Part shown: positions 1,493 through 64,000 of the stretch, piece after piece
Numbering within the stretch: the first letter of the stretch is position 1
Layout: each line of letters begins with the position of its first letter
DNA from: Affinundibacterium fentianense
Lineage (GTDB): Bacteria > Pseudomonadota > Gammaproteobacteria > Burkholderiales > Burkholderiaceae_D
DNA: 64,000 bases
Direction: 5' to 3'
NCBI RefSeq assembly: GCF_018139545.1
Contig: NZ_JAGSPJ010000002.1
Span: 124,001-188,000, forward strand
The notes under the pieces: model-generated
What the model saw: only the letters and a program-made list of their open reading frames with translations
Databases searched by the model: none
What the model was told of the DNA's origin: nothing
Made by a program: the position numbers and the translations under genes

Positions 1493-1534
1493 TTGATTTA
1501 GCTCAAGTGAGATGTTGCACTGCGCAACTAAACT
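1493..1534 (+). promoter_or_regulatory. FNR/Dnr-type box plus -10 element of ompW
   Basis: TTGAT-TTAG-CTCAA (1493-1506) matches nine of ten positions of the FNR consensus TTGAT-N4-ATCAA. Exactly 22 bp after it lies TAAACT (1529-1534), a plausible -10. The inferred start site near 1541 puts the box centre at about -41.5, the class II activator position. The same spacing occurs at norC and nirS in this window. OmpW-type genes are known FNR targets in enterobacteria; activation here is inferred. Confidence 0.7.
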
Positions 1535-23554: not shown

Positions 23555-23704
23555 CGAATCCAGCAAAGACGTTGCATAGATGCATTCCGTCGCGAGCAAC
23601 TACGGCATAAGTGCCTAGACGATACTCAATTGCACCTCCAAAGTGTTTTCGTTTTAACTTCGCTCAGCTATGATGCGTTATGCTGTAATCAATGCGGAGG
23701 CAAC

Positions 23705-25003
23705 ATGGCATTCTTTGACCATCTCATGGTAATTCTAATTTTAGTGATTATCAGCGGATTTTTTTCTACGTCCGAAATTGCCCTTGCAGCAGCACGCAAG
23801 GTGAAATTACAGATACTAGAAGAAAGTGGCGACCCACGAGCAACGAAGGTGCTTGCATTACAACAAGAGCCCGGTCACTTTTTTACTGTGGTACAAATCG
23901 CGCTCAATGCGATTGCGATCTTAGGTGGTATTTTAGGTGAACAATCATTAACTCCTTATTTTGCCCAACTATTTCACTCGCTGTTTGGCAGTGCCAGTTG
24001 GATTGACACCTTAAGCTTTCTCAGTTCCTTTATTTTTGTCACATCGATCTTTATTTTATTGGCAGATTTAATGCCAAAGAAGCTGGCCATGGTTGCCCCA
24101 GAGCGCGTCGCCATGTTTGTCGTTACCCCGATGTTAGTTTGCGTCAAATTATTCAAACCTTTAGTTTGGCTATTCAATGGCTTATCCAATCTGATTTTGA
24201 CCAGTCTTAATTTGCCAACGGAACGTGACGACCAAATTACGTCCGATGAAATCCATGCAGTTGTGAACGCAGGTGCGGAAGCCGGCATACTACAAACCCG
24301 CGAACATGACATGATTGGGAATGTGTTTGAGTTAGAAAGTCGCACAGTGCCTTCTGCCATGTCGCAGCGCGACAGCATCGTATTTTTGACCTTGCAAGAT
24401 AATGAAGCCAGCATTCGCCATAAAATTGCCGAACATCCGCACACTAAATTTTTGGTCTGTGATGGTCAAATAGACAAAGTGGTTGGCTATGTTGAATCCA
24501 AAGATATATTGAAACGCATACTCACAAACCAAGCTTTCTCTAAAGTGCAAGAATTGTCTCTACGCTCGGCCTTGGTCGTTCCCGATTCACTAACGCTCTC
24601 AGAAATGTTAGAGCAGTTCAAAGCAACACGCGAAGATTTTGCAGTCATTTTGAATGAGTACGCACTCGTAGTTGGCATCATTACCCTCAATGATGTGTTA
24701 AGCACGCTAATGGACGGTATGGTTCACCCATATCTGGAAGATCAGATCGTACGAAGAGATGACAATTCTTGGTTGATCGATGGTGCGACTGCAATTGAAG
24801 ATGTTTGTCGAGCCCTCGACATCGATGCCATGCCTGAGTCTGGCAACTACGAGACTGTCGCTGGTTTTATGATGACGATGCTCAGAAAGATCCCGAAGCG
24901 TACTGATTTTGTCATGGTAGGTGATTACAAATTTGAAGTCGTCGACATCGATCAATTCCGAATCGACCAGTTATTAGTCGTGAAATTAGCAAAATCCGAC
25001 TGA
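23705..25003 (+). CDS. CNNM/CorC-HlyC family membrane protein
   Basis: A membrane protein (432 aa) of the family that includes CorC, HlyC and the CNNM magnesium transport-associated proteins. A DUF21 membrane domain (about 1-185) opens with HLMVILILVIISGFFSTSEIALAAARK. Two CBS domains follow (about 205-325), then a C-terminal CorC_HlyC domain (about 345-425) with SGNYETVAGFMMTML. The start at ATG 23705 has a strong GGAGG; the longer frame from 23630 lacks support. The older name hemolysin is misleading; a role in Mg2+ or Co2+ efflux or homeostasis is the better family-level guess. Confidence 0.9.
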   Translation: MAFFDHLMVILILVIISGFFSTSEIALAAARKVKLQILEESGDPRATKVLALQQEPGHFFTVVQIALNAIAILGGILGEQSLTPYFAQLFHSLFGSASWIDTLSFLSSFIFVTSIFILLADLMPKKLAMVAPERVAMFVVTPMLVCVKLFKPLVWLFNGLSNLILTSLNLPTERDDQITSDEIHAVVNAGAEAGILQTREHDMIGNVFELESRTVPSAMSQRDSIVFLTLQDNEASIRHKIAEHPHTKFLVCDGQIDKVVGYVESKDILKRILTNQAFSKVQELSLRSALVVPDSLTLSEMLEQFKATREDFAVILNEYALVVGIITLNDVLSTLMDGMVHPYLEDQIVRRDDNSWLIDGATAIEDVCRALDIDAMPESGNYETVAGFMMTMLRKIPKRTDFVMVGDYKFEVVDIDQFRIDQLLVVKLAKSD

Positions 25004-33146: not shown

Positions 33147-34028
33147 TTACGCTGGACGAGTACCAGTTGGGAAAGGCCAAGCTGCTGTTGGACTGACAAC
33201 TGTCTTTGCTTCTGCTGGCGCTGCCGCTACTGCAGCAGGCTTTGCAGCTGCTGGTTTTGCTGCTTTTTTCGCTGCTGGTTTAGCTGCGGCCTTTTTTGCG
33301 GCTGGCTTAGCCGCCGCTTTTTTTGCTGCTGGCTTTGCGGCTGGTTTCGCTGCTGGCTTAGCTGCTGCTTTTTTTGCTGCTGGCTTAGCTGCTGGTTTCG
33401 CTGCTGCTTTTTTCGCTGCTGGTTTCGCTGCTGCTTTTTTCGCTGCTGGCTTAGCTGCTGGTTTCGCTGCTGCTTTTTTCGCTACTGGCTTAGCTGCTGG
33501 TTTCGCTGCCGCTTTTTTAGCTGCAGGCTTAGCTGCTGGTTTCGCTGCTGCTTTTTTCGCTACTGGCTTAGCTGCTGGTTTCGCTGCTGCTTTTTTCGCT
33601 GCTGGCTTAGCTGCTGGTTTCGCTGCTGCTTTTTTCGCTGCTGGCTTAGCTGCTGGTTTCGCTGCTGCTTTTTTTGCTACTGGCTTAGCTGCTGGTTTCG
33701 CTGCTGCTTTTTTCGCTGCTGGCTTAGCTGCTGGTTTCGCTGCTGCTTTTTTCGCTGCTGGCTTAGCTGCTGGTTTCGCTGCTGCTTTTTTCGCTGCTGG
33801 CTTAGCTGCTGGTTTCGCCGCTGCTTTTTTCGCTACTGGCTTAGCTGCTGGTTTCGCTGCCGCTTTTTTAGCTGCAGGCTTAGCTGCTGGTTTCGCTGCT
33901 GCTTTTGCCGCAGGTTTTGCTGCAGGTTTTGCTGCAGATTTTGCCGCAGGTTTTGCTGCAGCTTTCTTTGCCGCCGGTTTCGCCGCAGGCTTAGCTGCTG
34001 CTTTCTTGGCTTCTGGTGCTGTTGCCAT
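33147..34028 (-). CDS. Histone H1-like Ala/Lys/Pro-rich repeat protein
   Basis: A 293-aa protein made almost only of Ala, Lys and Pro, similar in style to histone H1-like and AlgP-type C-terminal domains of betaproteobacteria and pseudomonads. It is strongly basic and expected to be disordered and to bind DNA or RNA without sequence specificity; a nucleoid role is an inference. Eleven tandem 13-residue units KKAAAKPAAKPAA or KKAAAKPAAKPVA fill residues 54-196. Only the ends differ: MATAPEAKK at the start and a less basic tail ending PFPTGTRPA. AAGGAG precedes the ATG. A hairpin AATCCGCT/AGCGGATT (34076-34083 with 34096-34103) sits just upstream, possibly in its leader. Confidence 0.9.
   Translation of the reverse strand: MATAPEAKKAAAKPAAKPAAKKAAAKPAAKSAAKPAAKPAAKAAAKPAAKPAAKKAAAKPAAKPVAKKAAAKPAAKPAAKKAAAKPAAKPAAKKAAAKPAAKPAAKKAAAKPAAKPVAKKAAAKPAAKPAAKKAAAKPAAKPAAKKAAAKPAAKPVAKKAAAKPAAKPAAKKAAAKPAAKPVAKKAAAKPAAKPAAKKAAAKPAAKKAAAKPAAKPAAKKAAAKPAAKPAAKPAAKKAAAKPAAKKAAAKPAAKKAAKPAAAKPAAVAAAPAEAKTVVSPTAAWPFPTGTRPA
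33441..33869. repeat. 39-bp tandem repeat array, 11 units
   Basis: In-frame array within the H1-like gene, eleven copies of a 39-bp unit coding for 13 residues. Units 1, 5, 8 and 10 (counted from the protein N-terminus) carry Val instead of Ala at position 12. Such an array can change length by slippage or recombination without breaking the frame. Confidence 0.9.
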
Positions 34029-50361: not shown

Positions 50362-50799
50362 ATGGCAACAGCACCAAAAAAAGCAGCAGCAAAACCAGCA
50401 GCGAAGCCTGCCGCAAAAGCAGCAGCGAAACCAGCAGCAGCAAAAAAACCAGTAGCAAAAGCAGCAGCTAAACCTGCAGCAAAGGCAGCAGCTAAACCTG
50501 CAAAAGCAGCAGCTAAACCAGCAGCAGCGAAAAAGCCAGCGGCAGCACGTAAGCCAAATGCAGCTTTCATGAAGCCTATGACTTTGTCTCCAGTTTTGGC
50601 AGCAGTAATTGGCGCAGCACCAATGCCACGTACTGAAGTAACCAAAAAAATCTGGGAATACATCAAAAAGCACAAACTGCAAGATGAAGCAAACAAACGC
50701 AATATCAACGCGGATGACAAATTGAAAGCCGTTTTCGGTGGCAAGAAACAAGTCTCCATGTTTGAAATGACAAAACTCATTTCTGGTCATCTGTCCTAA
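50362..50799 (+). CDS. SWIB/MDM2-domain protein with histone H1-like N-terminus
   Basis: A 145-aa basic protein. Residues 1-66 are almost only Ala, Lys and Pro, like the H1-like protein at 33147-34028. Residues about 68-145 form a SWIB/MDM2 domain: FMKPMTLSPVLAAVIG, then RTEVTKKIWEYIKKHKLQDE, and VSMFEMTKLISGHL at the end. In eukaryotes SWIB domains occur in chromatin remodelling; in chlamydiae and betaproteobacteria they are small, often nucleoid-linked proteins. A role in DNA compaction is inferred. AAGGAG precedes the ATG, and a strong terminator follows. Confidence 0.92.
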   Translation: MATAPKKAAAKPAAKPAAKAAAKPAAAKKPVAKAAAKPAAKAAAKPAKAAAKPAAAKKPAAARKPNAAFMKPMTLSPVLAAVIGAAPMPRTEVTKKIWEYIKKHKLQDEANKRNINADDKLKAVFGGKKQVSMFEMTKLISGHLS

Positions 50800-51997: not shown

Positions 51998-52302
51998 GAA
52001 AGCGACCGTCTGCAGTAATTTTGCATTGAGCCTACCCCACGCTTTACTGAAATTGATGTCTTTCCAAGTGATCGATCTCAGATCGATCTACCACCGATAT
52101 CACCTTACTATGCCTAGCTTCAGCATATTCCTTGCATACGTAGTTGTGACGACTCGCTAGCACGCATATTCCATTCGAATCAACACAATCAACTTGACGA
52201 AGTTTCCAATGCGAAGAAATCCTCACATGTTTTGATTCGCCTCAAAGCTTTCATCAAAACAGCAAATTTCTGCCTCGCAACGCTGTTGCCATCTTTCTAA
52301 AA

Positions 52303-52344
52303 TTGACTGCAATCAAGGAAAGCGAATCTCTAGACACTTACTAT
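52303..52344 (+). promoter_or_regulatory. FNR/Dnr-type box plus -10 element of norC
   Basis: TTGAC-TGCA-ATCAA (52303-52316), then exactly 22 bp, then TACTAT (52339-52344). The inferred start site near 52351 puts the box centre at -41.5. The leader to norC would be about 98 nt. The regulator could be a Dnr/Nnr-type NO sensor or FNR; none is encoded in the window. Elsewhere in the 51998-52448 gap there is a palindrome AGATCGATCT-like sequence near 52080. Confidence 0.8.
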
Positions 52345-52380
52345 CAGTGACGTGGGGAAATAACATCCACAACATCAATT

Positions 52381-52418
52381 AGCGCTGGCGAATCCAAACG
52401 ACAACTCAGCGCTTTTTA
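52381..52418 (+). promoter_or_regulatory. Terminator-like hairpin in the norC leader
   Basis: AGCGCTG (52381-52387) pairs with CAGCGCT (52407-52413), 19-nt loop, followed by TTTTT. It lies between the predicted norC start site and the start codon, so it may attenuate or stabilise the mRNA. Confidence 0.5.
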
Positions 52419-52448
52419 TGATTTACATTTAATAGGGGTTAACTCGAC

Positions 52449-52874
52449 ATGAGCTCATCGTTCACCAAGTCAACCGCCAGAAATATCTTTTATGGCGGCT
52501 CTGTTTTTTTCTTCCTGTTATTTCTCGGACTCACATTCGATACGATGAGTGCGTTGCCCAAGCGAGATAACAGTGCCAATTTGACCGAATCCGCGATCCG
52601 CGGCAAGAAGATTTGGGAAACCCGTAACTGTATTGGTTGCCACACTTTATTAGGTGAAGGTGCTTACTTTGCGCCTGAACTCGGCAATGTGTATAAGCGT
52701 CGCGGCCCGGATTTTATTCGTGCTTGGATGGCGGCTCAGCCAACCGGTGCGCCAGGTCGTCGCCAAATGCCACAGTTCAATTTGAATGAAAAAGAAATGA
52801 ACGATTTGGTCGAGTTTCTGAAATACAGCTCAGAAATTAATACCAACAACTGGCCGCCTAATATCGAAGGCTAA
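52449..52874 (+). CDS. norC: Nitric oxide reductase subunit C
   Basis: Membrane-anchored cytochrome c subunit (141 aa) of cytochrome c-dependent NO reductase, which passes electrons to NorB. One N-terminal membrane helix (about 13-33) anchors a periplasmic heme domain with CIGCH (C61-H65), then GEGAYFAPELGNVYKRRG. The distal Met ligand is probably in RRQMPQFN. It precedes norB by 36 bp. The presence of norC shows the short (cNor) type and not the quinol-dependent qNor. Confidence 0.96.
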   Translation: MSSSFTKSTARNIFYGGSVFFFLLFLGLTFDTMSALPKRDNSANLTESAIRGKKIWETRNCIGCHTLLGEGAYFAPELGNVYKRRGPDFIRAWMAAQPTGAPGRRQMPQFNLNEKEMNDLVEFLKYSSEINTNNWPPNIEG

Positions 52875-54296
<1,422 letters not shown>

Positions 54297-54392: not shown

Positions 54393-55238
54393 ATGAACGA
54401 TTTAAGTCATCAAGCATTTCTAGCGCCAGCTTCAACAACAACTGAGATTCCGTTTTATCAGCCAGTTAGTAATGAATGCGTGCTATTTGAATTCGCTTAC
54501 CAACGCCAATTGCCCCTATTAATCAAAGGCCCGACAGGCTGCGGCAAGACGCGTTTCGTCGCACACATGGCGGCAAAATTGGCGCGTCCCTTAATTACCG
54601 TCGCTTGCCATGATGATTTAACTGCCGCAGATTTAGTCGGGCGTCACCTAATCGGCGACGGCGAGACTATCTGGTCGGATGGGCCGCTCACCCGTGCGGT
54701 ACGTCAAGGTGGTATTTGTTATTTGGATGAAATTGTCGAAGCGCGCAAAGACACCACGGTGGTCTTACATCCGTTGACGGATGACCGCCGCATACTTCCT
54801 ATCGAACGTACCGGCGAAGAACTGACTGCGCCAGATGAATTTATGCTGGTTGTATCGTACAACCCCGGCTATCAAAATTTATTAAAGAATCTCAAACCCT
54901 CGACCCGTCAACGTTTTTTAGCAATCCAGTTTGATTACCCCAATGCGGAATTAGAGCAAAGTATTTTGATGACAGAGACCGGCATTGATCTAGCTCTAGC
55001 GACACGTTTAGTCGATATCGCGCGCCGTTTCCGTCAACTCAAACAACATGATTTGGACGAAGCAGCATCTACCCGACTGCTAGTCTATGCCGCGAATCTG
55101 ATTGCGGCGGGCTGTCCCATCGTGGATGCTTGTGCAGCCGCGTTGGTTGAACCTCTGAGCGATGATTTAGACACAATTGCAGCCTTAATGGAAGTGATCA
55201 AACTACACTTTGGCAGCAGTAAAGGCAGCAATAAATAA
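54393..55238 (+). CDS. norQ: NorQ/CbbQ-type MoxR AAA+ ATPase
   Basis: Cytoplasmic AAA+ protein (281 aa) that works with NorD to activate NO reductase, probably by inserting the non-heme iron. Walker A GPTGCGKT (46-53), Walker B CYLDEIVEA (D111-E112), then the sensor region VVSYNPGYQ and the C-terminal CbbQ_C domain. It is preceded by the norB terminator, so it may have its own weak promoter or depend on read-through. It is followed after 14 bp by the small membrane protein gene. Confidence 0.95.
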   Translation: MNDLSHQAFLAPASTTTEIPFYQPVSNECVLFEFAYQRQLPLLIKGPTGCGKTRFVAHMAAKLARPLITVACHDDLTAADLVGRHLIGDGETIWSDGPLTRAVRQGGICYLDEIVEARKDTTVVLHPLTDDRRILPIERTGEELTAPDEFMLVVSYNPGYQNLLKNLKPSTRQRFLAIQFDYPNAELEQSILMTETGIDLALATRLVDIARRFRQLKQHDLDEAASTRLLVYAANLIAAGCPIVDACAAALVEPLSDDLDTIAALMEVIKLHFGSSKGSNK

Positions 55239-55687: not shown

Positions 55688-56713
55688 ATGCAAGTAAAAT
55701 CACATCTCGGTTTATGGGGAATCCCCGTTCAACAATGGCGTCGCTTCACGCAAGTCAGTTTCTTTTTATTGTTTGTATTCGCACCAATATTTGACCTCTT
55801 CCGCCTAGATCTTAATCTCAAACATTTCATTATTTTGGGGATGGATTGGACCTTGGGCCTGAATGATTTCGTGGCCGGCAAAGATACCGCCGGACAAGCA
55901 GCCAAAGCCATTTTTCTGCACGCAATTTTGCCGCTGATTTTACTGGCGGCGGGCGTCATCTACGTTGCGTGGAAATGGGGGCGGATTTATTGCGGCTGGT
56001 TGTGTCCACATTTTTCCATTGTCGAAACCATCAACCAAACTTTGCGTAAAGCGATAGGTAAGCAAAGTTTATGGGATAAGGAAGCGCTGCCTTCGCGCAA
56101 TCCAGATGGTACGCAAACTAAACCTGATGCAATCTGGTGGTTAGGCGTCATTCCTCTCACCATCATTTGTGCCATCACTTGGGCCACGGTATTACTCACT
56201 TATCTGCTCCCGCCTGCTGAGATCTACGGCAATCTTTGGCATGGGACCTTAACCCGCAGTCAAACTGTATTTTTAATTGCAGGTAGTATTGCCTTCTTTG
56301 TTGAGTTTATGTTTGCACGTCATCTATTTTGTCGCTACGCCTGTGCTTTGGGCTTATTTCAAAGTTTGGCATGGATGGGCAATGACAAAGCGATGGTAAT
56401 AGGCTTTAAACGTGAAAGAGCCAAAGATTGCTTTTCTTGTTACTCTGCTTGCGATCACGTTTGCCCGATGCGCCTCAACCCGCGCAACGTCAAACGCATG
56501 ATGTTCGCCTGCGTACAGTGTGGACAATGTACCGACGCCTGCACCCAAACGCAAAGTGACAATCCGCAAGGCAATTTACTCGAATGGGTGAACCAAGCTT
56601 ATGCCGAATCGGAAGCGGCATTGAATGGCAGTACTGCTCGTGTGATTCGAATTAAGCTAGAAAAGAATAATGTAATACCAATCCATAATTCGAACAAAAA
56701 GATTCCATCGTAA
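55688..56713 (+). CDS. NapH/CcoG-like 4Fe-4S polyferredoxin membrane protein
   Basis: Membrane protein (341 aa, about five helices) with ferredoxin-like clusters. Cys motifs: CGWLCP near residue 102 (as in NapH/CcoG/NosR), CFSCYSACDHVCPMR near 250 and CVQCGQCTDACTQ near 275, the last two matching 4Fe-4S sites. Relatives pass electrons from quinol (NapH) or reduce copper for oxidase assembly (CcoG/RdxA). In this setting it may supply electrons or metal for NO reductase maturation, which is an inference. It begins 12 bp after the small membrane gene. Confidence 0.85.
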   Translation: MQVKSHLGLWGIPVQQWRRFTQVSFFLLFVFAPIFDLFRLDLNLKHFIILGMDWTLGLNDFVAGKDTAGQAAKAIFLHAILPLILLAAGVIYVAWKWGRIYCGWLCPHFSIVETINQTLRKAIGKQSLWDKEALPSRNPDGTQTKPDAIWWLGVIPLTIICAITWATVLLTYLLPPAEIYGNLWHGTLTRSQTVFLIAGSIAFFVEFMFARHLFCRYACALGLFQSLAWMGNDKAMVIGFKRERAKDCFSCYSACDHVCPMRLNPRNVKRMMFACVQCGQCTDACTQTQSDNPQGNLLEWVNQAYAESEAALNGSTARVIRIKLEKNNVIPIHNSNKKIPS

Positions 56714-56869
56714 GCCTCAAAAAGTAACAGTATAGAGAAAGCATCGGATTGATAAAGCGGGCACAGCCCGCTTGGTACATCAAACAATTTAGGATTTACC
56801 AAGGCTTAGTGGCGCGAATTGCCACCACCCTACAAAAGCAATAAGAACTTCAAATATGAAAGTGTAGTA

Positions 56870-58726
56870 ATGGAAGAATATATAGGCGGCTTGTGGGATA
56901 AATTGATCACTCGTCTCGCATATCAGGGTTACCCAGAAGCCCGTGTAGAATTGGCACAGATGAAAAACATCGGGGCGACATTCTTTCGTGCGCTCGGTGG
57001 CGATCCTGGTATCAATCTACAATCAGGCTCTGCCAGCGCGCACGGTGCGCGTCGTAGTTGGCTAGAACGTATTGCTGGTATCGGTGAGAAAGCGGAACTC
57101 ACATGGGCAGATGAAACCACTTTACACCTACCCGCCTCTATCGATTACTTTCCAGAACGCGAACTCAATCGCGAATTGTACTTATGGCTGCTGGCATTAG
57201 TCGCCCATGATGTTGAGCCAGATGCCACCTACTTACAACGCAATCAAGCCGCGACCTTGGCCTTGCTGAGTGCATTCCCCTCTTTACAGGATCGTTATCA
57301 ACGTTTGGTAGAAGCGAGCTTGCTGCGCCGCCCTTATCCTAGTGAATTAAAAAAATACGAAGCAGAAAACGAATTACTACTACGTCAAGCGCTATTACAA
57401 CCGGGCAGCGTTCATGCTGAATTAAAAAAAGTCGGACGTAAAGAATTCAACTTCGTTCCTGTTCCACTGTGGTTGAATACGCCACCCAAGAATGCGATTA
57501 ATAATACCAAGCCCGCTAGCAAACTCACACCCGAGCAACCGCAAGGCAGCGCGGTGCAATCCGATACCGAACAACGCAAACGGATGGCAGAACGCACTGA
57601 CATGCCCGACAACCCTAGCCCCTTCATGCTGTTATTTCGCGCCGAGAGTTTATTTTCTTGGGCGGAGTATGTGAAGGTCAATCGCCCGCTAGATGAAGAT
57701 GATAATCCCGACGCACAAAGAGCGGCGAATGACTTTGATGTGATGAGCGTCGCCAACGATGGCAAGAGTACCGCGAGTCGGGTGCGCTTTGATCTCGATT
57801 TACCGGCCGAAGCCGATGACGATTTATTGCTAGCCGACGGCATTCTTTACCCAGAATGGCATTACAAAAAACAACAACTGCAAGAAAAGCATGCGCGCAT
57901 ACAAATGCTACTAGCACGCGATGCCGAAGCAATCGCCTTACCAGAACACTTACGCGCAACCGCCAAGCGCTTGCGCCAACAGTTTCAAAGCTTAACGCCA
58001 GAACGTCAACGTCTGCGTGGTCAACTTAGCGGCGACGATATCGATATTGATGCTTGTGTACGCTTTAGCGCAGAACGACGCGGTGCCAACAGCGGGTATG
58101 CCGTTGCAAGTCCCGGCCTGTATCTAGATAATCGCCAGCAAAGCCGCGACATGGCGTGCCTCTTACTCGCAGATTTATCGATGTCCACCGATACTTGGGT
58201 AAATAATCAAGCTCGCGTGATTGATGTGATACGCGACAGCCTTTATCTATTATGTGAAGCTTTATCCGCCACCCGTGATCGCTTCGCTATGTATGGATTT
58301 TCGTCAGTACGACGTGACAACGTGCGCTTTCACTTACTCAAAGGTTTCGACGAAAAATACAGTGATCAGATACGTGGTCGCCTAGCAGAAATCAAACCGG
58401 GCTTTTACACCCGTATGGGCGCGGCGATCCGACATGCTTCTGCCATTTTGCAACAACAAAAAAACGCGCGTCGTCTACTCTTCATTTTGACCGATGGCAA
58501 ACCCAACGATCTCGATCAATATGAAGGCCGCTATGGCATCGAAGACACGCGAGTTGCAATTCACGCTGCGCGTCAGTTAGGACTGATTCCTTTCTGCGTG
58601 ACGATTGATGAAAAAGCAGAAGATTATTTACCGCACCTGTTCGGAGCGAAAGGCTATATCGTCGTAAAAGATGCGACAGAGTTACCGCATCTTTTACCGC
58701 GCTTATATGCCGCACTGACTCAATAG
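56870..58726 (+). CDS. norD: NorD, VWA-domain NO reductase activation protein
   Basis: Cytoplasmic protein (618 aa) that partners NorQ in activation of NO reductase. The C-terminal von Willebrand A domain (about 425-618) has the metal site DLSMS (MIDAS) in CLLLADLSMSTDTWV, plus FILTDGKPNDLDQYEGRYG. The N-terminal part is helical and has a low-complexity acidic middle. The frame begins at 56819, but the ATG at 56870 gives the usual MEEYIGGLWD start. A hairpin AAGCGGG/CCCGCTT (56755-56761 with 56767-56773) sits in the 156-bp gap before it and may mark processing or a weak terminator. Confidence 0.93.
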   Translation: MEEYIGGLWDKLITRLAYQGYPEARVELAQMKNIGATFFRALGGDPGINLQSGSASAHGARRSWLERIAGIGEKAELTWADETTLHLPASIDYFPERELNRELYLWLLALVAHDVEPDATYLQRNQAATLALLSAFPSLQDRYQRLVEASLLRRPYPSELKKYEAENELLLRQALLQPGSVHAELKKVGRKEFNFVPVPLWLNTPPKNAINNTKPASKLTPEQPQGSAVQSDTEQRKRMAERTDMPDNPSPFMLLFRAESLFSWAEYVKVNRPLDEDDNPDAQRAANDFDVMSVANDGKSTASRVRFDLDLPAEADDDLLLADGILYPEWHYKKQQLQEKHARIQMLLARDAEAIALPEHLRATAKRLRQQFQSLTPERQRLRGQLSGDDIDIDACVRFSAERRGANSGYAVASPGLYLDNRQQSRDMACLLLADLSMSTDTWVNNQARVIDVIRDSLYLLCEALSATRDRFAMYGFSSVRRDNVRFHLLKGFDEKYSDQIRGRLAEIKPGFYTRMGAAIRHASAILQQQKNARRLLFILTDGKPNDLDQYEGRYGIEDTRVAIHAARQLGLIPFCVTIDEKAEDYLPHLFGAKGYIVVKDATELPHLLPRLYAALTQ

Positions 58727-61262: not shown

Positions 61263-61599
61263 AAATTACCTCAACTTCCGACAAAAATATAAGCGCTCCC
61301 TAACCCTGGCAACGCTAAGGAAATGCAACGAACAAAGTCAATACTGACAGCAAAACTTTGCTAACTCATTCATGCTCCAAGTGCATATCAGGATGGACAG
61401 GGAAAATACAAGTCCATAAATAACTGGGCCTTGCAAGTTAAAACATATCGCGCACACAAATGGGGTTCCTCGATTGCGTAGAGAATATGAATTCTCATCT
61501 ATGAGCGTTGTATTTTTTCACGATTTTTTTTGAACTCCGCGTGCCAACTTCGCCCTAAGTTTTGATCTATCACAGACATTCCTCGAATCAATTCTTTTC

Positions 61600-61641
61600 T
61601 TGACCGCAGTCAATGAATTGCAAAAAACAGCAGAGTAGCCT
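61600..61641 (+). promoter_or_regulatory. FNR/Dnr-type box plus -10 element of nirS
   Basis: Perfect palindrome TTGAC-CGCA-GTCAA (61600-61613), exactly 22 bp, then TAGCCT (61636-61641), keeping the three most conserved -10 bases. The predicted start near 61648 gives a leader of about 149 nt. Core bases TTGACYGCARTCAA are shared with the norC site. The rest of the 61263-61796 gap shows no gene. Confidence 0.75.
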
Positions 61642-61754: not shown

Positions 61755-63545
<1,791 letters not shown>

Positions 63546-63555
63546 GGAGAAATCG

Positions 63556-63876
63556 ATGAAATTCACCCTTTCAACTTTGTTAGCGACATGTGCATTGGCA
63601 GTAGCAAGCCTACCTGCGATGGCCGACACAGGCGCGGATCTAACTAAGAAAAACAACTGTATGAATTGTCATGGCGTCGATAAGAAGATCGTAGGCCCGG
63701 CATTCAAAGACATTGCCAAGAAATATAAAGGGAATGCCGATGCAGTTGCACTGTTGTCCAAGAAAGTAAAAGATGGCGGCAGCGGTGTGTGGGGTCCAAT
63801 TCCTATGTCGCCAAATAAAGCCGTCAGCGATGCGGACATTAAAGTGATGGTGGAATACGTGTTGGCCATGAACTAA
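63556..63876 (+). CDS. nirM: Cytochrome c551 (NirM type)
   Basis: Small periplasmic class I cytochrome c (106 aa precursor, about 82 aa mature), the likely electron donor to NirS. Signal peptide about 1-23 (ending PAMA). Heme-binding CMNCH (35-39) and axial Met in PIPMSPN (M84). GAGGAGAAATCG precedes the ATG, which lies 10 bp after nirS, so both are on one mRNA. Name NirM rests on position and type; a NirC-like role is the alternative. Confidence 0.9.
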   Translation: MKFTLSTLLATCALAVASLPAMADTGADLTKKNNCMNCHGVDKKIVGPAFKDIAKKYKGNADAVALLSKKVKDGGSGVWGPIPMSPNKAVSDADIKVMVEYVLAMN

Positions 63877-63885
63877 AACGCGTAA

Positions 63886-63907
63886 TGGAGTGCAGCGCTG
63901 CACTCCA
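63886..63907. repeat. Perfect 22-bp palindrome after nirM
   Basis: TGGAGTGCAGC directly followed by its reverse complement, with no spacer, 9 bp after the nirM stop. It could be an mRNA-stabilising hairpin or a recombination or operator site. Confidence 0.8.
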
Positions 63908-63926
63908 CTACGCGCAGTTCACATTC

Positions 63927-63960
63927 AAGCGTACAGAGAACTAATCTGTACGCTTTTTTT
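63927..63960 (+). terminator. Terminator after nirM
   Basis: Ten-bp stem AAGCGTACAG/CTGTACGCTT (63927-63936 with 63946-63955), 9-nt loop, then a run of seven T. It ends the nirS-nirM transcript. Confidence 0.92.
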
Positions 63961-64000
63961 ATATTTACCAGTTCATTGTTAGGCATATTCACTGATAGAC

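Follow-up and report, generated by a model that had tools for sequence, protein, structure and literature searches.

What switches on the nitric oxide reductase genes of Affinundibacterium fentianense, and which regulator reads the switch, are the questions raised by the DNA upstream of norC in a 64,000-nucleotide stretch of its genome (GCF_018139545.1, contig NZ_JAGSPJ010000002.1, positions 124,001 to 188,000, forward strand; hereafter the window). The original prediction took the element at 52303–52344 for a class II FNR/Dnr site. On re-reading, the letters and coordinates of the norC box, its 22-bp gap and the TACTAT hexamer were all correct (Table 1). TTGACTGCAATCAA is a TTGA-N6-TCAA inverted repeat of the kind bound at class II Crp/Fnr promoters, and with the -10 hexamer placed at -12 to -7, transcription would start at 52351 and the box would be centred at -41.5. 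Both the 22-bp gap and a centre at about -41.5, found at norC and nirS alike, are typical of class II Crp/Fnr promoters, as is the lack of a canonical -35 hexamer at 16–18 bp upstream of norC (0 found). The equal geometry that had been claimed for ompW and nirS was also confirmed, with 22 bp between box and TANNNT at both. Judged from the DNA and its relatives, there is strong support for 52303–52344 as a real class II FNR/DNR-type promoter element that has been retained in related genomes, and the norC switch is an ordinary one of known type.

Table 1. Promoter features and genes of the window discussed in the text.
Feature	Position	Strand	Remarks
Distal norC box TTGATTCGCCTCAA	52232..52245	+	precedes the proximal box by 71 bp; predicted centre at -112.5
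Proximal class II operator of norC TTGACTGCAATCAA	52303..52316	+	centre -41.5; perfect box in 12/12 norC genomes of the genus
Spacer, 22 bp	52317..52338	+	identical length in 12/12 norC genomes of the genus
-10 hexamer TACTAT	52339..52344	+	TANNNT in 12/12 norC genomes of the genus
Predicted transcription start	52351	+	predicted from the position of the -10 hexamer
norC	52449..52874	+	best solved relative 3o0r_C, nitric oxide reductase subunit C, E 4.9e-58
norB	52899..54296	+	best solved relative 3o0r_B, nitric oxide reductase subunit B, E 7.2e-235
norQ-type AAA ATPase	54393..55238	+	Pfam AAA_5 and CbbQ_C
CcoG/NapH-like ferredoxin membrane protein	55688..56713	+	Pfam Fer4_5; NCBIfam ccoG 66.5 bits, under cut-off
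norD-type VWA protein	56819..58726	+	Pfam VWA
Upstream nirS element TTGATCTATCACAG	61562..61575	+	TTGAT, 38 bp before the nirS box
nirS class II operator TTGACCGCAGTCAA	61600..61613	+	22 bp before TARYCT in 16/16 genomes
nirS -10 TAGCCT	61636..61641	+	22 bp after the nirS box
nirS, cytochrome cd1 nitrite reductase	61797..63545	+	best solved relative 5guw_M, E 4.3e-259
ompW box TTGATTTAGCTCAA	1493..1506	+	9/10, one mismatch to TTGAYN4RTCAA; begins TTGAT
ompW -10-like TAAACT	1529..1534	+	22 bp after the ompW box

The nor cluster also contains the CcoG/NapH-like gene, which sits between the norQ- and norD-type genes; the latter name is one that we assume from the position of the gene. The nirS operator lies 9.3 kb from the norC operator, and a single small cytochrome c gene comes after nirS. 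In the 18 kb past nirS (61797–64000 of the window and L136), visual inspection of ORFs of 140 aa or more revealed no haem d1 synthesis cluster. OmpW was identified by Pfam.

The main evidence for the putative operator is its conservation in relatives. The nearest named NorC sequences are those of Undibacterium flavidum (99%) and U. macrobrachii (97%), from which we infer that the genus of the host and of the compared genomes is Undibacterium. Our sample of this genus comprised 43 genomes, with norC in 12 and nirS in 16. A perfect TTGAYN4RTCAA box exactly 22 bp from a TANNNT hexamer precedes norC in all 12, and a box followed after 22 bp by TARYCT precedes nirS in all 16 (15 boxes perfect, one 9/10). 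Much of the surrounding sequence varies from one species to the next, more being shared by close relatives. The same arrangement was found at ccoN, for which 19 of 20 fetched stretches and the host's own genome gave 20 loci: the box is perfect in 20/20, and the gap to the -10 measures 22 bp in 18 of them and 21 bp in two. The class II part of the original prediction is thus upheld by retention at 12/12 norC and 16/16 nirS promoters, and of the two regulator names that it offered, DNR is the better half, as argued below.

Three Crp/Fnr proteins above the cut-off for the HTH domain are encoded in the host genome (L001, L002 and L003), together with two PF13545 hits below it (L004, L005). Four proteins carry a cNMP domain, namely these three and one more, in whose ORF a motif suggests what we take to be a GGDEF domain; the helix of L003 is presumably CRP-like. 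Only L001 (C45:523127–523996; helix LETVSR) is FNR-like, none of the other three cNMP-domain proteins being so, and its gene lies about 12 kb from ccoN. L002 (976–1818, 280 aa) is DNR-type: its best solved relative is DNR 3dkw, with which it has the recognition helix PETFSR in common. Its gene is located on another contig than the window, beside nar genes, in a neighbourhood that we read as narGHJI, narXL, dnr and narK; the stretches with nar, dnr and narK (L137, L138) themselves yielded no N22-TANNNT box scoring 9/10 or better.

The distribution of these regulators points to the DNR-type protein. Its gene (E ≤1e-30) was found in 12/12 norC genomes vs. 17/31 others (Fisher p 0.004) and in 16/16 nirS genomes vs. 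13/27 others (p 0.0004), p values that are only a guide, as the genomes of one genus are related and not independent samples. A DNR-type protein with an FNR-type helix is accordingly both present and associated with nor and nir, as would be expected of DNR-controlled promoters. The FNR-like protein has no CxxC at any of the 30 loci read (the host and 29 relatives; L001, L250–L279), although a C-x11-C occurs near the N-terminus in 20 of them. This gives no support to an oxygen-labile cluster like that known from E. coli, and the CxxCx5C motif plus fourth cysteine of Fe-S FNR proteins was likewise not found in the host or the 29 relatives. Both the co-occurrence of the genes and the missing CxxC argue for DNR at norC.

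We consider it likely that the norC site is a class II activator operator, read most probably by the DNR-type protein L002. The box at 52303–52316 would overlap the -35 region and drive norCB and the linked nor genes: a DNR-type dimer would bind TTGAC-N4-RTCAA centred at -41.5 and recruit RNA polymerase to TACTAT, as at nirS, the presumable signal being nitrogen oxides and/or low oxygen. L002 has other residues in place of all six histidines that DNR 3dkw shows in the aligned stretch, including H139, which PMC8510549 names as a residue of the haem/NO site of DNR. This makes NO sensing via the same haem site doubtful, and the signal of L002 may differ from haem-bound NO; for this reason we use the label DNR-type with no claim of haem-NO sensing. 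L002 is at best 41% identical to the other DNRs in our tree, where it forms a long, unplaced branch.

The original prediction also read the shared geometry of ompW, norC and nirS as a sign of one shared activator, which now seems doubtful. The ccoN promoters have nearly the same geometry, yet 19/20 of their boxes are of the TTGAT/ATCAA type, and a TTGAC half is present in 25/28 norC and nirS boxes vs. 1/20 ccoN boxes. When only distinct boxes are counted, the proportions are 17/20 vs. 1/7 (p 0.002); the ccoN genomes partly differ from the norC/nirS genomes. Three of the 28 norC/nirS boxes lack a TTGAC half, among them the norC box TTGATTGCAATCAA. The ompW box, too, begins with TTGAT. Since base 5 of the half-site differs at near-equal spacing, equal geometry is no pointer to one activator. 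The 22-bp spacing looks generic, as any class II Crp/Fnr protein needs it, and it may be base 5 that separates two activators.

This distinction bears on a second set of elements, newly observed here, upstream of the norC and nirS operators. A distal norC box (at least 8/10) precedes the proximal one by 71 bp in six genomes, by 70 bp in two and by 59 bp in one, and none was found in the remaining 3/12 norC genomes of the genus (L158, L159, L163). All nine distal boxes begin with TTGAT, vs. TTGAC in 11/12 proximal boxes. At nirS, a TTGAT precedes the operator by 38 bp in 13 genomes and by 39 bp in three (16/16). The distances of 38, 59 and 70–71 bp, few as they are, would differ by about whole helical turns, and a second dimer, in phase with the helix, may occupy the upstream elements. 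At the box at -112.5 and the TTGAT before nirS, this would possibly be a dimer of the FNR-like paralogue; ccoN, the likely target of that protein, has TTGAT-N4-ATCAA. Such a promoter with two inputs, the DNR-type protein on the proximal TTGAC and the FNR-like protein on the distal TTGAT, would be compatible with activation by L002, and we regard it as a tentative extension of that reading: three genomes lack the distal box, the copy in the window is imperfect on its right side, and the nirS elements, mostly TTGATCTATCGCAG-like blocks, match in the left half only, with the right half off consensus.

It is less likely that the FNR-like paralogue activates norC, nirS, ccoN and ompW alike, with the DNR-type protein acting elsewhere or only modulating. 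The FNR-like protein also has an FNR-type helix and could share the norC site; the location of its gene near ccoN, the class II geometry of the ccoN promoters and the one TTGAT-type norC box in the genus are all consistent with this. However, the FNR-like gene (E ≤1e-20) shows no association with nirS (15/16 nirS genomes vs. 23/27 others; p 0.64, as a guide only), and one genome with both norC and nirS (G033, assembly 89% complete) has no FNR-like match at E 1e-20. The difference in base 5 between ccoN and norC/nirS and the absence of CxxC at 30/30 loci read further argue against it, making this reading an unlikely one. Second FNR-like copies exist in other genomes.

Still less probable is control of the nor genes by NorR and sigma-54, by NsrR or by a plain sigma-70 promoter, with the box being decorative. 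According to PMC1274295, norB of betaproteobacteria can be controlled by NorR or NsrR. In 52000–52460, however, we found no sigma-70 promoter pair, no forward sigma-54-like site (TGGCAC-N5-TTGC, up to one mismatch) and no NsrR-like site (ATGYAT-N5-ATRCAT, up to two mismatches), and box and spacing are invariant in 12/12 genomes, so that this option appears very improbable. The single sigma-54-like match of this region (52277–52291) is on the minus strand and has one mismatch, and all three readings of the norC promoter were dropped after these motif scans.

Chance had been called unlikely by the original prediction, and the counts in the window agree with this. It contains four boxes of at least 9/10 with N22-TANNNT (ompW, norC, nirS and a minus-strand box at 24955, within the ORF 23630–25003), more than the maximum of two in 200 dinucleotide shuffles (mean 0.28), and two perfect ones vs. 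a shuffle mean of 0.005; at every other gap from 14 to 31 bp there is no box or one. In the whole genome, 43 perfect boxes vs. nine for the reversed pattern were found, an enrichment that we set aside because 27 of the 43 fall in ORFs of at least 150 aa. Perfect boxes with N22-TANNNT number three (norC, nirS and ccoN) vs. two for the reversed pattern, and therefore the genome-wide count by itself is not above chance; with a 21-bp gap to TANNNT, no perfect box occurs in the host genome. These genome-wide counts would speak for a chance palindrome, which the window shuffles, the conservation at norC, nirS and ccoN and above all the 12/12 retention refute in practice.

Base 5 was also followed outside the genus, together with the helix of the DNR. 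Starting from 80 norC loci, we followed 76 (30 with the DNR of the window's organism as query, 46 with that of G071), leaving out L024, L025, L026 and L049, and six of the 76 had no DNR match at E 1e-25. The helix was read by tblastn and alignment from the best DNR match per genome only. In the resulting 70 loci (69 genomes), the residue after the helix Glu, presumably the one next after position 181 by alignment to CRP numbering, is Thr in 45, Tyr in 18 and His in seven. The norC box was called as the best TTGA-N6-TCAA (at least 7/8) within a stretch of up to 400 bp, matches closer than 60 bp to the start codon being excluded. This rule removed two Tyr loci (L085, L086), in both of which ATGAACCAAGTCAA precedes the start codon by 15 bp. 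Boxes were found at 38 Thr, 16 Tyr and six His loci, and a TTGAA half occurs in 0/38, 16/16 (on both sides in 11, on one in five) and 1/6 of them, respectively. The His exception (L074) comes from a genome with seven Crp/Fnr matches (G048).

The Tyr group carries this operator at further promoters. We found 33 TTGAACNNGTTCAA sites in the 18 Tyr genomes (present in 14 of them; reversed control three) vs. four in the 21/44 Thr genomes searched (reversed control three). To 23 of the 33 sites a gene could be assigned: nirS (n = 7), norC (n = 10, two in one genome), nosZ (n = 1), a cytochrome d1-domain gene (n = 1), a tetrapyrrole methylase (n = 1) and molybdopterin oxidoreductases (n = 3), which we take to be NapA-like from their appearance. 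One of the remaining 10 precedes a chemoreceptor-like gene, and the other nine were compared only with NirS and NorC. On a tree built without the helix columns, the Tyr group requires two changes, close to one origin. The Tyr/TTGAA pairing is one lineage event at many promoters and not many independent events; in these relatives, which belong to a neighbouring group, operator and reading protein alike appear to have been altered. The TPEYFSR helix and TTGAA-N4-TTCAA operators occur in a Comamonadaceae-like clade (DNR loci L195–L206, L208–L210, L236–L238 and L240; operators L281–L316); L199, within these DNR loci, has PEHFSR.

On balance, we think it probable that base 5 sets the specificity of DNR and that a change from Thr to Tyr (PETFSR to PEYFSR) rewired the operators of nirS, norC, nosZ and napA-type genes from TTGAY-N4-RTCAA to TTGAA-N4-TTCAA at near-unchanged class II spacing, with DNR thereby insulated from FNR. 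The unswitched state would be that of Undibacterium, where C or T at base 5 already splits the targets of the DNR-type and FNR-like proteins. We found no report of a TTGAA-type DNR operator in the literature, which is weak evidence of novelty, as subscription papers were mostly outside the search. For the genus, the window provides a firm assignment of the nor and nir promoters and a testable split of two activators sharing one geometry. If true, a base-5 code and a clade with co-changed operator and helix would open the crosstalk between regulators of denitrifiers to direct testing, and DNR targets of Comamonadaceae-like denitrifiers could escape regulon predictions that use a TTGAT matrix.

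Herbaspirillum seropedicae, which we take to belong to the same bacterial family as the host, offers one comparison among known systems. According to the study on its Fnr1 and Fnr3, it also has a class II Fnr promoter, with a site centred at -42 at fnr1, but both proteins have conserved cluster-ligating cysteines (PMC5934665), whereas the Undibacterium FNR-like protein lacks CxxC. In the DNR regulon of Pseudomonas and betaproteobacteria, as described in PMC1274295, an FNR-box-like operator likewise precedes nirS and nor and is read by a non-Fe-S Crp/Fnr regulator. That text gives CTTGATnnnnATCAAG as the DNR consensus in denitrifying species and positions 180 and 181 as specificity-determining. 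Measured against this description, the Undibacterium system differs in base 5, which is mostly C at norC and nirS, in the second conserved norC box, and in a regulator without the six histidines of DNR 3dkw in the aligned stretch. The predicted centre at -41.5, shared with class II FNR/CRP promoters, is called almost optimal for Fnr-dependent promoters in PMC5398030. The same source describes, for FnrL and Dnr of Dinoroseobacter shibae, TTGAC-N4-GTTAA upstream of norC as well and, between nirS and nosR2, a site whose position relative to nosR2 is -41.5, in another organism group and with other regulators and another operator arrangement. The motifs of FNR and DNR closely resemble each other according to PMC8510549, and PMC12403760 describes an overlap of Anr and Dnr sites.

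Further features were noted near norC and elsewhere in the window. At 52414–52451, a TTTATGATTTACATT-like block and, directly before the norC start codon, a CGAC-ending sequence are common to the window and several relatives (L153–L162). Some relatives (L024, L026, L153, L155 and L162) have the short repeat AGGACTTACGCAAAATTGCG upstream of norC; in L155 and L162 it precedes the start codon by 70 and 125 bp, respectively, and a search of the window allowing three mismatches found no copy. Finally, two lysine/alanine-rich low-complexity proteins, presumably histone-H1-like, are encoded at 33147–34028 and 50362–50799.
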